From NCBI RefSeq assembly GCF_039729145.1, contig NZ_CP155793.1, forward strand, positions 1,736,001-1,800,000: a DNA stretch of 64,000 nucleotides, given 5' to 3'. This document shows positions 3-7,213 of this stretch, one piece after another. A program made the translations under genes and the position numbers. The DNA is from Microbacterium sp. SY138. GTDB lineage: Bacteria > Actinomycetota > Actinomycetes > Actinomycetales > Microbacteriaceae. The notes below the pieces were generated by a model, which saw only the letters and a list, made by a program, of their open reading frames with translations, had not been told where the DNA came from and searched no databases. The stretch's first letter is position 1. Each line of letters starts with the position of its first letter.

Positions 3-1021
<1,019 letters not shown>

Positions 1022-1025
<4 letters not shown>

Positions 1026-2891: not shown

Positions 2892-3596
2892 GTGTGTGAG
2901 ACGACTTCCAGCGCCCTGCCGCGTGCGATGATCTCCCGTTCGGCCCTGGCCGCGGGCGCCTTTGCTGCCGTGTCGGCAGGCGGCCGAGTCGCCGATCTAC
3001 GGCGTGACGCCTGGGGTCATGGTGTTCTCGCCGTCGCGCAGCTCGTGACGGCCGCAGGAGCCGAGCGAGTGCTCGTCGACGCCCGCGGAGAGGTGGAGGC
3101 GTTGCAGCTCGAGGGAATCGACGGCGCCACGACGGGTGAGCCGGACATCGACGCGACGCTCCTCTACGGTCTTCCTGATGCGACCGGACGCACGAGGACG
3201 CGACCGGTGATGCGGCTGACGGGTCGCGTCCTCTCCACCAAGGGGCTCCGGCCGGGAGACGCCGTCTCCTACGGTTACACCTACCGCGCCTCGCGTGAGA
3301 CCACGGTGGCGCTGGTGACCGGTGGGTACGCCCAAGGCATCGTGCGCGCGCTCGGAAACCATGCCGAGGTCGAGATCGACGGCGCAGCTCGCCCCATCGT
3401 CGGCCGTGTCGCCATGGACGTCTGCGTCGTCGACCTCCAAGGCGCGGATGCCGAGGCGGGCGCGGAGGTCACGTACTTCGGCGGCGAGGGTCAGGCGGGA
3501 TCCGCCATCGCGCACTGGGCCGCCGTCACCGGAATGAGCCCGGCGGAACTCGTCACCGTCGCCGGCGCACATGCCGTGCGGGGGTGGGAGGCTTGA
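2892..3596 (+). CDS. Alanine racemase-like subunit: C-terminal domain with catalytic Tyr, truncated barrel
   Basis: About 234 residues. The N-terminus matches only the first two strands of the alanine racemase TIM barrel: DLRRDAWGHG stands where normal enzymes have VVKADAYGHG, so the PLP lysine is replaced by Arg, and most of the barrel is missing. In contrast the C-terminal beta domain is complete: VMRLTGRVLSTKGLRPGD, the catalytic-Tyr motif VSYGYTYRA, GGYAQGIVRALGN and the VGRVAMDVCVVD motif. It therefore cannot form a racemase site alone. The next gene overlaps it and has the opposite losses, suggesting a heterodimer. GTG 2892 is favoured because of the TAGGGT box; GTG 2883 and ATG 2928 are alternatives. 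The frame is intact and motifs are conserved, so it is not simply a decayed copy. Confidence 0.8.
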   Translation: MCETTSSALPRAMISRSALAAGAFAAVSAGGRVADLRRDAWGHGVLAVAQLVTAAGAERVLVDARGEVEALQLEGIDGATTGEPDIDATLLYGLPDATGRTRTRPVMRLTGRVLSTKGLRPGDAVSYGYTYRASRETTVALVTGGYAQGIVRALGNHAEVEIDGAARPIVGRVAMDVCVVDLQGADAEAGAEVTYFGGEGQAGSAIAHWAAVTGMSPAELVTVAGAHAVRGWEA

Positions 3597-4633
3597 GCCG
3601 TCCGGAGCTGCGCCTGAGCAGCAGCACGTTCCGGGCGAACATCGACGCGGTACGCGCCCGAGTGGCGCCGTCGACGTTGATGCTCGTGCTCAAGGACGAC
3701 GCGTACGGCCACGGACTCTCGTGGGCCGTCGAGTCCGCGGCCGACGCGGGCGTCACGTGGTTCGGCAGCTATGACATCCGTACCGGGTTGACCGTGCGCA
3801 GGATCGCCGGCGGCGACGCCAGGATCTTCGCGTGGGTGACGTCGACGGACGCCGAGATCGACGACGCCCTCATGCAGAGGCTCGACCTCGGCGTCGGCAC
3901 GAGCGACTACCTTCGGCGGATCATCACGCGCGCAGAGGCGCTCGGCACGCCCGCGCGCGTGCACCTGAAGATCGACACCGGCCTTCATCGCAATGGCATC
4001 CTGCCCGACGACTGGGCTGCGGCCGTCGCTGTCGCGCGCGACGCCGAGCGCGCAGGACTCCTGGAGTTCGAGGGGGTGTGGAGCCATATCGCCGAGGCGA
4101 GCGACGCGGACGACGACGTCGCACAATCGGTGTTCCTCGAAGCGGTCCGTACCGTGGCGGATTCGGGGACGACCCCTGCCGCGCTTCACCTGACCGCGTC
4201 GGCGGCGTCCTGGTGGCGCCCCGAACTGCGCGGAACGGTCTCGCGCATCGGAGCCTTCTGTTATGGCATCCGATCCGCAGACGGACCGGAACTGGAAGGC
4301 ATCCTCCCGGCTGCGAGCCTCGTCGCGCCCGTCATCAGCGTCCAGCGGGACGACGTGACCATCGGCATCGGCAGTTTCGACGGATTCCCTTCGACACTGG
4401 CCGGAAGTCGCGTCGGCACATCTGCCGGAACGCGCACCCTCACGTCGGTGGGACATACGACGTCGACTGTCGAAGGCTGGGCAGGAGCGAGAGCGGGGGA
4501 TCAGGTCGTGGTCTTCGGCGCCGGGACGCACGGAGAGACGTCGGCGACGACTCTCGCTGAGCGTATCGATACCGTGGGAGAAGAGATCCTCACCCGGCTC
4601 ACATCACGTGTGCGGAGAGTCGTCGCCGATTGA
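3584..4633 (+). CDS. Alanine racemase-like subunit: barrel with PLP Lys, degenerate C-terminal domain
   Basis: 349 residues (348 codons plus an early alternative TTG at 3593). The N-terminal barrel is near complete: LVLKDDAYGHG carries the PLP lysine, followed by VHLKIDTGLHRNG, GVWSHIAEASDADDD, HLTASAAS and RIGAFCYGI, all recognisable alanine racemase landmarks. The C-terminal domain keeps its scaffold (ILPAASLVAPV, GDQVVVFGAG, GEEILTRLTSRVRR) but the SYG-x-TY segment with the catalytic Tyr is absent and the GRxxMD motif has become SVGHTTST. The start overlaps the upstream gene by 13 bases, so the two are translated together. Taken with its neighbour, each active-site half is present once across the pair. 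A true alr gene is presumably elsewhere in the genome. Confidence 0.8.
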   Translation: MGGLSRPELRLSSSTFRANIDAVRARVAPSTLMLVLKDDAYGHGLSWAVESAADAGVTWFGSYDIRTGLTVRRIAGGDARIFAWVTSTDAEIDDALMQRLDLGVGTSDYLRRIITRAEALGTPARVHLKIDTGLHRNGILPDDWAAAVAVARDAERAGLLEFEGVWSHIAEASDADDDVAQSVFLEAVRTVADSGTTPAALHLTASAASWWRPELRGTVSRIGAFCYGIRSADGPELEGILPAASLVAPVISVQRDDVTIGIGSFDGFPSTLAGSRVGTSAGTRTLTSVGHTTSTVEGWAGARAGDQVVVFGAGTHGETSATTLAERIDTVGEEILTRLTSRVRRVVAD

Positions 4634-4692: not shown

Positions 4693-4911
4693 TCAGACCG
4701 TCTCGACGAGGCGGGCGGTCTCGTCGTGCCAGCTGGTCGCGATGCTGCGGAGCTTCTCTTCGTACTTGCGGCCGTGGTGGGCGCAGAACAGGAGCTCGGA
4801 TCCGTTGACCTCAGCGGCGATGTACGCCTGAGCGCCGCATGAATCACAGCGATCCATGGCGGTCAGGCGGAACTCGACGGTGGAGGTGTCACGTTCGGTC
4901 GTTGCGTTCAT
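4693..4911 (-). CDS. Small Cys-rich DUF7455-type actinobacterial protein
   Basis: 72-residue conserved protein of unknown function. The core MDRCDSCGAQAYI and LLFCAHHGRKYEEKLR contain CxxC and CxxH, which probably form a small zinc site. The ATG at 4911 is chosen because GAGGAGG lies seven bases upstream; an in-frame ATG further upstream at 4965 lacks support. It is divergent from parE. The family is widespread in actinobacteria, often near sigA or topoisomerase genes, but no role is established. Confidence 0.8.
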   Translation of the reverse strand: MNATTERDTSTVEFRLTAMDRCDSCGAQAYIAAEVNGSELLFCAHHGRKYEEKLRSIATSWHDETARLVETV

Positions 4912-5078
4912 CTCGGTGCCTCCTCGGGTGTCGGCTTCGCTGGGGGATTTGGTCAATACAACCACGCCCCACCTGTGCGCATGCCCGGTTTGCGGCGTGT
5001 TTCGCTCAGCGCGTACGCGACGCCCGTCGAGTGGCCCTCCGCGGGGAGTGTCTGCGGAGCCGGAACGACTCGCGAGAT

Positions 5079-5084
5079 TAGACT
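5079..5084 (+). promoter_or_regulatory. -10 box for parE
   Basis: TAGACT ends 8 bases before the GTG at 5093, which matches the point where ParE homology starts. This supports a leaderless or near-leaderless transcript and argues against longer upstream starts in the same frame. Confidence 0.5.
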
Positions 5085-5092
5085 CGGAGATT

Positions 5093-7213
5093 GTGAATGC
5101 CGAGTACTCCGCCCATCATCTCCAGGTGCTTGAAGGCCTCGAGGCCGTCCGCAAGCGCCCAGGGATGTACATCGGGTCGAACGGGTCGCCCGGACTCATG
5201 CACTGCCTCTGGGAGATCATCGACAACTCCGTCGACGAGGCGGTGGCCGGCAACGGCACGAAGATCGACATCATCCTGCATGCCGACGGCAGTGTCGAGG
5301 TCCACGACCGTGGCCGCGGCATCCCGGTGGACGTCGAACCGCGCACCGGTCTGACCGGCGTCGAGGTGGTCTATACCAAACTGCACGCCGGTGGGAAGTT
5401 CGGCGGCGGGTCGTACGCGGCATCCGGTGGTCTGCATGGTGTCGGCGCCTCCGTGGTGAACGCGCTCTCCGAGCGCCTGGACGTCGAGGTCGATCGCGGC
5501 GGCAAGACCTACGCCATGTCGTTCCATCGTGGCGAACCGGGGGTCTTCGCAGACTCCGGAGAGAAGCGTCCCGACGCGCCGTTCACTCCCTTCCAGGAGA
5601 AGAGCGAGCTCCGTGTCATCGGCAAGGCGCCCCGCGACGTGACCGGTACGCGGGTTCGCTACTGGGCCGATCGGCAGATCTTCACCAAGGACGCGGCCTT
5701 CCAGCTCTCCGAGCTCGAGACCCGCGCCCGACAGACGGCGTTCCTCGTCCCGGGCCTCGAGATCGAGGTCGCCGACAAGCGGACGAATCGTCCGGATGCT
5801 CCCGAGCTCGGCTCCGAGGATGCGGATGCCACCGGGACGGTGACGTCCTACCTCTATGAGGGCGGGATCTCGGAGTTCGTCGACTACCTCGCGGTCGATC
5901 CGCCGGTGACCGACAACTGGCGCATCCAGGGGGAGGGGACGTTCAAGGAGACCGTTCCCGTTCTGCAGGCCGACGGGCACATGGTCGCTACCGAGGTGGA
6001 GCGCGTGTGCGCCGTCGACATCGCGCTGCGGTGGGGCACCGGTTACGACACGCGCGTGCGGTCGTTCGTCAACATCATCGCGACGCCCAAGGGCGGAACC
6101 CATCAGCAGGGCTTCGAGCAAGAACTCCTCAAGGTTCTCCGCACCCAGGTCGAGCAGAACGCGCGTCGTCTCAAGGTCGGCAACGACAAGCTCGAGAAGG
6201 ACGACGTCCTCGCGGGCCTCACAGCGGTGCTCACGGTGAACGTGCCCGAGCCGCAGTTCGAGGGGCAGACGAAGGAGATCCTCGGCACTCCGGCCGTCCG
6301 GCAGATCGTCGCCCAGGTGATCCGCAAGGACCTGGCCCAGCGATTCAGCTCGACCAAGCGCGACGACAAGAACCAGGCGTCGCAGCTGCTCGACAAGATC
6401 GTCTCGGAGATGAAGGCGCGCGTGTCGGCACGTGCGCACAAGGAGACGCAGCGCCGCAAGAACGCACTGGAGTCGTCGACCCTTCCGACGAAGCTCGTCG
6501 ACTGCCGCACGAACGATGTCGAACGCAGCGAGCTCTTCATCGTCGAGGGAGACTCGGCGCTCGGCACCGCCAAGAACGCGCGCAACAGCGAGTTCCAGGC
6601 GCTGCTGCCGATTCGGGGAAAGATCCTCAACGTGCAGAAGGCGTCGGTCGGCGACATGTTGTCGAATGCGGAGTGCGCGTCGATCATCCAGGTGATCGGT
6701 GCAGGCTCCGGCCGGACCTTCGACATCGATGCGGCTCGCTACGGCAAGATCATCCTGATGAGCGATGCCGATGTCGACGGCGCCCACATCCGCACCCTCC
6801 TGCTCACCCTGTTCTTCCGCTACATGCGGCCGCTGATCGAGCACGGCCGCGTGTTCGCCGCCGTCCCGCCGCTGCACAGGATCATCGTGATGAACCCGGG
6901 CTCGAAGCCGAACGAGACGATCTACACCTACAGCGAGCAGGAGATGCACACGCTGCTGGCGAAGCTCCGCAAGGCGGGCAAGCGCTGGCACGAGCCGATC
7001 CAGCGGTACAAGGGCTTGGGTGAGATGGACGCAGAACAGCTGGCGAACACCACGATGGACCGTTCCGGACGGCTGCTGCGTCGCGTGCGCATGGAGGATG
7101 CGGAGGCCGCGGGCCGCGTGTTCGAGCTCCTGATGGGCAACGAGGTCGCCCCGCGCCGCGAGTTCATCATCGACTCCTCCGACCGGCTGTCGCGCGAGTC
7201 GATCGACGCCTGA
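5093..7213 (+). CDS. parE: DNA topoisomerase IV subunit B (GyrB/ParE family)
   Basis: 706-residue ATPase subunit of a type IIA topoisomerase. The GHKL ATPase domain shows EIIDNSVDEA (catalytic Glu near residue 41, Asn near 45), DRGRGIP (Asp near 72) and GGLHGVGASVVNALS. The transducer domain follows, then TOPRIM with the catalytic Glu in IVEGDSALGTAKNARN (near residue 485) and DADVDGAHIRTL (near 558). The end QRYKGLGEMDAEQL is the conserved tail. It is paired with a convergent ParC-type A subunit, and the TOPRIM wording (EGDSALG rather than EGDSAGG) fits the second, non-GyrB paralogue; gyrB/gyrA should lie near dnaA elsewhere. The frame is open well upstream (to 4856), but homology begins at 5093. 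Confidence 0.93.
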   Translation: MNAEYSAHHLQVLEGLEAVRKRPGMYIGSNGSPGLMHCLWEIIDNSVDEAVAGNGTKIDIILHADGSVEVHDRGRGIPVDVEPRTGLTGVEVVYTKLHAGGKFGGGSYAASGGLHGVGASVVNALSERLDVEVDRGGKTYAMSFHRGEPGVFADSGEKRPDAPFTPFQEKSELRVIGKAPRDVTGTRVRYWADRQIFTKDAAFQLSELETRARQTAFLVPGLEIEVADKRTNRPDAPELGSEDADATGTVTSYLYEGGISEFVDYLAVDPPVTDNWRIQGEGTFKETVPVLQADGHMVATEVERVCAVDIALRWGTGYDTRVRSFVNIIATPKGGTHQQGFEQELLKVLRTQVEQNARRLKVGNDKLEKDDVLAGLTAVLTVNVPEPQFEGQTKEILGTPAVRQIVAQVIRKDLAQRFSSTKRDDKNQASQLLDKIVSEMKARVSARAHKETQRRKNALESSTLPTKLVDCRTNDVERSELFIVEGDSALGTAKNARNSEFQALLPIRGKILNVQKASVGDMLSNAECASIIQVIGAGSGRTFDIDAARYGKIILMSDADVDGAHIRTLLLTLFFRYMRPLIEHGRVFAAVPPLHRIIVMNPGSKPNETIYTYSEQEMHTLLAKLRKAGKRWHEPIQRYKGLGEMDAEQLANTTMDRSGRLLRRVRMEDAEAAGRVFELLMGNEVAPRREFIIDSSDRLSRESIDA

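Follow-up and report, generated by a model that had tools for sequence, protein, structure and literature searches.

In a 64,000-nucleotide stretch of the Microbacterium sp. SY138 genome (contig NZ_CP155793.1, positions 1,736,001 to 1,800,000; hereafter the window, to which all coordinates refer), two overlapping genes, here called A and B, encode relatives of alanine racemase (Alr), each of which has lost the half of the active site that the other has kept. Very probably, A and B form one composite racemase-like site. A fuller reading, which we favour with some reservation, is that A-B is an obligate heterodimer and a single-site amino-acid racemase, dependent on pyridoxal phosphate (PLP), that makes the D-diamino acid of a peptidoglycan bridge. 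The argument draws on complementary conservation, linkage, joint presence and absence, gene fusions, purifying selection and locus context. An obligate heterodimer with one rebuilt site had been proposed in the original prediction, which was made from the DNA letters, and joint presence, conserved residues, fusions and the model of a fused homologue now support it.

Gene A (2892..3596, + strand) begins with GTG at 2892 and encodes 234 residues, a length shared with many database orthologues. Its only Pfam match is Ala_racemase_C (PF00842, E = 7.7e-31); the C-terminal beta domain is intact, and the approximately 80-90 residues upstream of it are a remnant of the barrel side. Residues are numbered throughout as in Geobacillus stearothermophilus Alr. 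Alignment with the genome's own full-length Alr puts an Arg codon (3000..3002, +) in the place of the PLP lysine, Lys39. The catalytic Tyr, equivalent to Tyr265, lies in the motif VSYGYTYRA (3270..3272, +), and the equivalents of Met312 and Asp313 lie in GRVAMD (3414..3419, +), so that the description of A first given, with both motifs present and the lysine replaced by Arg, is borne out. Gene B (3584..4633, +; 349 residues) encodes the PLP-barrel subunit and matches Ala_racemase_N (PF01168, E = 9.2e-41). As had also been described, B has the PLP lysine (Lys37 of B, equivalent to Lys39; 3692..3694, +) in LKDDAYGHG and lacks SYG-x-TY and GRxxMD, the whole Tyr265 segment being gone. The near-complete barrel ascribed to B is there, but a view of B as barrel only does not hold: B keeps most of a degenerate C-terminal domain, matches Ala_racemase_C in part (profile positions 36-126, E = 1.8e-8), and has Glu333 (4580..4582, +) at the place of Tyr354, the alanine gate. 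Both proteins fall below the 168-bit cut-off of the alanine racemase family TIGR00492 (A 102.3 bits, B 113.3 bits).

The two genes share 13 bases (3584..3596, +), as was originally noted, and this overlap probably couples their translation. Most closer relatives have the identical B start site and many others a 4-base overlap; a few have no B start codon at either place. The closest named match at the locus is Microbacterium maritypicum MF109, in which A and B are both 100% identical. The window's genome, a single contig of 3.92 Mb, has another two full-length alanine racemase genes, in the vicinity of C1:925481 and C1:379245, so that D-Ala supply does not require the A-B pair.

The complementary loss is conserved. 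We aligned the window's pair and 27 Microbacterium relatives (41-85% identical in A, 45-84% in B) with the genome's own Alr. Position 39 of A is never Lys in these 28 pairs; it is Arg in 18, Ala in 8 and otherwise Thr or Asp. Tyr265, Tyr284, Arg290, Met312 and Asp313 are each kept in all 28 A proteins, and Lys39, Tyr43, Lys129, Arg136, His166 and Arg219 in all 28 B proteins, in none of which Tyr265 occurs. The full active-site set of alanine racemase is thus present only across A and B jointly, six residues from the barrel of B and five from the C-terminal domain of A. Since the losses are complementary in 28/28 A and 28/28 B, chance and sequencing error are excluded. Across the family, an alignment of 70 pairs (11 from Microbacterium and 59 from other loci) gives the same picture. 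In A, Tyr265, Arg290 and Met312 occur in 70/70, and Tyr284 in 67, with Phe in the other 3; in B, Lys39, Arg136, His166 and Arg219 occur in 70/70 and Lys129 in 67/70. Lys39 in A and Tyr265 in B are each found in only three rows (L169, L174 and L179), which are intact tandem full-length racemases. The PLP lysine and the catalytic Tyr are accordingly never in the same chain in 28/28 Microbacterium pairs and in 67/70 pairs family-wide, which establishes the predicted loss of active-site halves as real and as a property of the family. What remains of the barrel in A is graded: 228 residues at most and 62 at least separate the Lys position from the Tyr position, and the Tyr is invariant over the 70 rows. 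A motif count over 74 loci, some of whose genomes were entered twice from two collections, found SYG and GRxAMD in 74/74 A genes; in B, SYG and GRxMD were found in 0/74 and the gate motif GEE in 72/74. The two B loci without GEE are assemblies with a broken frame (L069 and L098), in which the rest of B is recognisable in another frame.

A and B also occur together. Among 35 Microbacterium genomes (the window's own and 34 others), 28 have both genes, 7 have neither and none has a single one, so the two are present or absent together in 35/35, with no independent loss. In 74/74 loci holding both they are adjacent and in the same order; a further locus, L110, stops short of B. Both genes are under purifying selection: the ratio of nonsynonymous to synonymous substitution rates (dN/dS) against seven relatives is 0.12-0.31, a rough estimate at a dS near 1. 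These results bear on the possibility that A and B are two decaying pseudogenes of a duplicated alr. Large deletions in both genes, an evolution faster than that of the neighbours and a B frame broken in 2/74 assemblies would suit such decay, but selection is purifying, the active-site halves are conserved over many genera, presence and absence are joint, fusions occur, and the rest of each broken B can be read in another frame. Given dN/dS and conservation we rule pseudogenes out, leaving them a negligible probability.

Two cases are unusual in copy number. The M. stercoris assembly has loci L112 and L113 on two contigs with equal A and B match statistics, which may be a duplication or an assembly artefact, and L167 (genome G281) holds two A-B pairs and two ATP-grasp genes within one sigA-parE locus. 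In an order-wide search (248 genomes, at least 18 of them within the family), all matches from other families, among the matches listed, span at least 1,068 bases and are thus of full-length kind. Judging by the length of these listed matches, the pair is likely confined to Microbacteriaceae.

The family holds several forms of this gene pair, which we collected by B-profile searches over 299 Microbacteriaceae genomes followed by direct reading of loci; A genes were placed by their residues, as full-length Alr proteins and distant A genes score equally on the A1 profile. By our tally, direct reading showed a split or fused pair in 25 genus labels, and an intact two-gene tandem in 8. In the intact tandems, called T1-T2, the first gene has Tyr354 and the second Glu or Asp at that position. 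For example, in L232-L236, L238 and L239 the first racemase has the usual Tyr354, and the second combines Asp354 with all catalytic residues. It is possible that T2 is a homodimeric relative of B.

A and B are fused in one open frame in L150 (729 residues) and L151 (766 residues), of the same genus label, and in L251, of another genus label, whose protein of 832 residues has its A part at 183-418 and its B part at 480-829. Searching a database with the L150 protein revealed more fusions, such as P0005 of Parafrigoribacterium mesophilum (732 residues). The A half is short in P0013 and P0015, and certain other fusions keep a nearly full dead barrel there. All seven fused proteins inspected (P0002, P0005, P0008, P0009, P0012, P0013 and P0015) have the Tyr in the first half and the Lys in the second. 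Where the source names such fusion proteins, they are annotated merely as alanine racemase.

In a tree of the N-terminal domain (68 rows), B and T2 group together (support 99/97), separate from T1 and the ordinary Alr proteins, with the T2 rows nested among the B rows. In a tree of the C-terminal domain (60 rows), A goes with ordinary Alr and T1, not with T2, at moderate support (90/95, 85/80). Taken together, the two trees make an ordinary Alr-like copy the probable ancestor of A, and the T2 copy of a tandem the probable ancestor of B. The trees have weak deep forks and long A branches. A single alr split by a sequencing frameshift is ruled out as an explanation of the pair: the start of the barrel and portions of the C-terminal domain are present in both A and B, the two recur as distinct genes throughout the family, and in the C-domain tree A groups with ordinary Alr and T1, T2 standing apart. 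The tandems raise another alternative, namely that the active enzyme is mainly B combined with another full-length Alr of the genome, A being a spare donor of a tyrosine domain. The intact T1-T2 tandems in 8 sampled genera, with T1 of the ordinary Tyr354 kind, speak for such an arrangement. However, A and B lie side by side in every locus read that has both and are sometimes fused, and the tyrosine side of A would not stay conserved if another Alr supplied the Tyr; we hold this explanation to be very unlikely.

Structure prediction is consistent with a composite site. The AlphaFold model of a fused homologue (predicted local distance difference test score 90.2, predicted template modelling score 0.90) consists of two alanine-racemase-like halves whose mutual position is well defined. 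A alone is predicted with a confident fold that resembles Alr minus part of the barrel. The top PDB matches of the models are alanine-racemase relatives, in lists that are filled by this one family and so exclude nothing. For A and B as separate chains, the physical complex with one active site is a putative one.

From these observations we infer a physical complex, its catalysis, a substrate and a pathway, as follows. A and B would form an obligate heterodimer of the alanine-racemase kind (fold type III), in which the barrel of B binds PLP through its lysine, one of the two catalytic bases. The C-terminal domain of A would cover the barrel of B, an arrangement known from the head-to-tail dimer of alanine racemase, and donate the Tyr as the other base, together with Arg290, Met312 and Asp313. 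The second site, between the barrel of A and the C-terminal domain of B, would be dead. Glu or Asp in place of Tyr354 in B may open the pocket and set an acid there. The substrate would likely be a basic diamino acid, with L-ornithine converted to D-ornithine in Microbacterium and perhaps diaminobutyrate or lysine used in other genera. The product would then be the D-diamino acid of a type-B2 bridge, which the products of the neighbouring genes would attach to the alpha-carboxyl of D-Glu.

The alanine gate is the residue that points most directly to a substrate. Position 354 of B is Glu in 28/28 Microbacterium pairs and, among the 70 family rows, Glu in 51 and Asp in 19; it is never Tyr. According to PMC3485190, alanine racemase owes its specificity for alanine to the narrow spacing of Tyr265' and Tyr354, and in the lysine racemases Lyr and Bar Tyr354 is replaced by Thr or Ala. 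An acid within an opened gate would suit the omega-amino group of a substrate, as far as can be judged from sequence. The missing Tyr354, together with the gene context, suggests that a basic amino acid (lysine, ornithine or diaminobutyrate) may be the substrate, and we consider it rather likely that the pair is a diamino-acid racemase for the type-B2 peptidoglycan bridge.

The pair might instead be a heterodimer with a composite site that is just another alanine racemase, serving D-Ala supply or regulation. The closest families of both proteins are indeed alanine racemases, and all catalytic residues are available. Yet the gate, with the meaning given to it in PMC3485190, is Glu or Asp in 70/70 B rows, two other full-length Alr genes are present in the genome, and 7/35 Microbacterium genomes live without the pair; we thus regard this as improbable. 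A different possibility is a PLP-binding heterodimer that carries out another diamino-acid reaction (decarboxylation, transamination or beta-chemistry), or an activity of B by itself or of a B homodimer, which A would regulate. B by itself has no second base, and fold type III also includes decarboxylases, both of which favour such a function. Nevertheless, the tyrosine-side set of A is conserved (70/70; Tyr284 67/70), which a regulator would not need, Tyr has stayed in the N-terminal half and Lys in the C-terminal half of the seven fused proteins, and B has Arg136 and His166 in 70/70 and Lys129 in 67/70 rows. A PLP-binding function other than racemization, which the original prediction had offered as its alternative, is weakened by these observations, and together with the regulator variant we judge it unlikely.

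The surroundings of the pair are likewise consistent with work on the cell wall. The conserved locus is bordered on the left by the gene for the principal sigma factor, sigA/hrdB-like (195..1025, +), and on the right by one (5078..7213, +) which, from its sequence, we take to encode a DNA topoisomerase subunit of the ParE/GyrB kind. Between the sigma factor gene and the pair lie genes for a CofE-like protein (F420_ligase, PF01996; 1022..1717, +), a candidate amide ligase, and for an ATP-grasp protein (ATPgrasp_ST, PF14397; 1795..2811, -), a candidate bridge ligase. The other flank holds a gene for a small DUF7455 protein (4693..4965, -), which is near-constant in the sigA-parE locus of the genomes seen.

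We compared 42 pair loci, several of them of common genus (L145-L168, L170-L173, L175-L178, L180-L184, L237 and L248-L251). MurT-GatD-like genes are present in 30 (in L166 weakly, together with CofE), CofE-like genes, alone or accompanied by ATP-grasp, in another 10, and neither set in the remaining 2, namely L165 and L172, whose stretch stops before sigA. In most loci read from other genera, for example L146, L152, L156, L158, L164, L171, L178 and L181, the MurT-GatD-like genes occupy the interval from sigA to the pair. Microbacterium carries CofE-like and ATP-grasp genes where other genera carry MurT-GatD-like ones, and the sets look like alternatives. No MurT_C match was found in the window's own genome. 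Eight MurT-like proteins were over the cut-off of PF08245 in 8/8 and of PF08353 in 7/8 cases, and in the four compared with NCBIfam the matches were partial and far under the equivalog cut-offs. One GatD-like protein had no Pfam match and a partial match to NCBIfam GatD of 66.8 bits, against a cut-off of 450. MurT-GatD amidates the alpha-carboxyl of D-Glu in lipid II, and in type-B peptidoglycan it is this alpha-carboxyl that bears the bridge. The neighbouring genes therefore suggest work on the D-Glu carboxyl that carries the type-B bridge. Fragments of D-Ala-D-diaminobutyrate and Gly-D-Glu have been reported for Rhodoluna (PMC4156110).

Genomes without the pair permit a comparison with wall chemotype. 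In the 7 pair-less Microbacterium genomes, sigA, CofE and parE are still neighbours, with ATP-grasp between them in 6/7 (in G012 it lies elsewhere), and the stretches fetched from these genomes contain no match to A or B above chance level. A distinct type of ATP-grasp, at least 73% identical to the query, is found in 4 pair-less and 0/28 pair-bearing Microbacterium genomes, always beside a second, diverged copy; the pair-bearing G030 has a copy at 50%. The pair-less L252, L254, L255 and L259 have two tandem diverged ATP-grasp genes, in three cases at the sigA-parE locus. In pair-less G013 the ATP-grasp protein of the distinct type is identical at 339/340 positions to one from M. invictum, whose wall diamino acid is lysine (PMC10978784, table 2). 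The pair is present in loci recorded under the names M. galbinum, M. sufflavum and M. algeriense, among others; for M. croceum and M. phyllosphaerae A alone was seen. According to PMC10757982, the wall diamino acid is D-ornithine in M. galbinum, M. sufflavum, M. croceum and the M. liquefaciens clade; L-lysine is reported there for M. enclense, for M. gubbeenense and, within the M. imperiale clade, for two species out of three. Named species seen to have both the pair and wall data are few, and they are D-ornithine types.

Outside these genomes, the parE region was fetched from 18 genomes of 18 genera, eight of them the T1-T2 genera, and A or B was found in 0/18 of these stretches. Of these stretches, 13 have MurT-GatD-like genes next to sigA (only weakly so in G318), and G080 has CofE and ATP-grasp; G071 has neither set, and three stretches with parC beside parE stop before sigA. 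In a MurT tree (41 rows), five pair-less genera fall into a single group on a long stem (100/100), a pattern consistent with a changed amine donor. The pair-less G143 and G100 are placed elsewhere in this tree, against a simple rule.

Several observations weigh against the racemase reading or against parts of it. The Asp313 equivalent of A is Asn in 15/70 rows, and A and B change faster than their neighbours parE, CofE and ATP-grasp. The ATP-grasp partner is not constant, as 6/28 pair-bearing Microbacterium genomes have no ATP-grasp match at E<=1e-60 with a divergent query. The substrate assignment draws on one residue, the gene context and one lysine/ornithine species contrast that goes through an inferred species name. 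M. radiodurans, reported as a D-ornithine type in PMC10757982, carries an ATP-grasp protein (P0207) of the type otherwise found only in pair-less genomes (4/4); if M. radiodurans has no pair, the ornithine reading is in trouble. The presence of D-diaminobutyrate in the Rhodoluna wall (PMC4156110) may also count on this side. Finally, 10/18 genera without A-B show no tandem paralogue in the stretches read either, although one of them, G100, had a second, unread match in the B-profile search.

If the heteromeric, one-site reading is true, A and B would be a clean case of duplicated enzymes turning mutually dependent, in an enzyme that is otherwise a textbook homodimer and a drug target, and the intact tandem, the half-decayed intermediate and the fused forms are all extant. 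A wider proposal, which we regard as evenly balanced, is that complementary decay of a tandem Alr duplication, graded by lineage, perhaps repeated and ending in fusion in at least two genera, gave rise to the missing D-diamino-acid racemase of type-B2 peptidoglycan, and that the sigA-parE locus, with this racemase and its MurT/GatD-like or CofE/ATP-grasp ligases, is a bridge cluster setting the wall chemotype of Microbacteriaceae. Should the substrate be ornithine or diaminobutyrate, a gene would be identified for the D-diamino acid of type-B peptidoglycan, with the neighbouring ligases as candidate bridge enzymes. Taxonomists have long used wall chemotype as a key, and its genetic basis could then be tested directly. 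In the open-licence literature searched, the phrases heterodimeric alanine racemase and split alanine racemase were absent, and the ATP-grasp family name together with peptidoglycan gave no match; among the matches listed we saw nothing on the A-B pair and no gene for the D-diamino acid of type-B peptidoglycan or its bridge steps.

Among known systems, alanine racemase itself (PF01168 and PF00842; PDB 1sft, 1xfc and 5fac) shares with A-B the fold, the PLP site, the two bases Lys39 and Tyr265' and, presumably, the head-to-tail dimer. However, Alr is a homodimer with two identical sites, whereas A-B has one half-site per chain, one site left, and Glu or Asp for Tyr354. Lyr and Bar (4dza and 4dyj; PMC3485190) resemble A-B in having the alanine-racemase fold without the Tyr354 gate, and they act on basic amino acids, but they are homodimers with Thr or Ala rather than an acid at 354, and their genes are unsplit. 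Their sequence similarity to A and B is weaker than that of the best ordinary Alr matches. VanT-type serine racemases (NF033131, 4ecl) are alanine-racemase relatives devoted to a cell-wall precursor; unlike A-B, they have a full-length catalytic chain, and A and B score far under the VanT cut-offs. Homologues of the lipid II isoglutaminyl synthase MurT-GatD adjoin the pair in 30/42 loci; those tested fall far short of the equivalog cut-offs, and the homologues may work with a different amine donor. The LCB1/LCB2 subunits of serine palmitoyltransferase offer a further parallel, in that two paralogues form a heterodimer in which one subunit has no PLP lysine and one active site is left, although this enzyme is of fold type I and eukaryotic, and its inactive subunit, unlike A, is untruncated.

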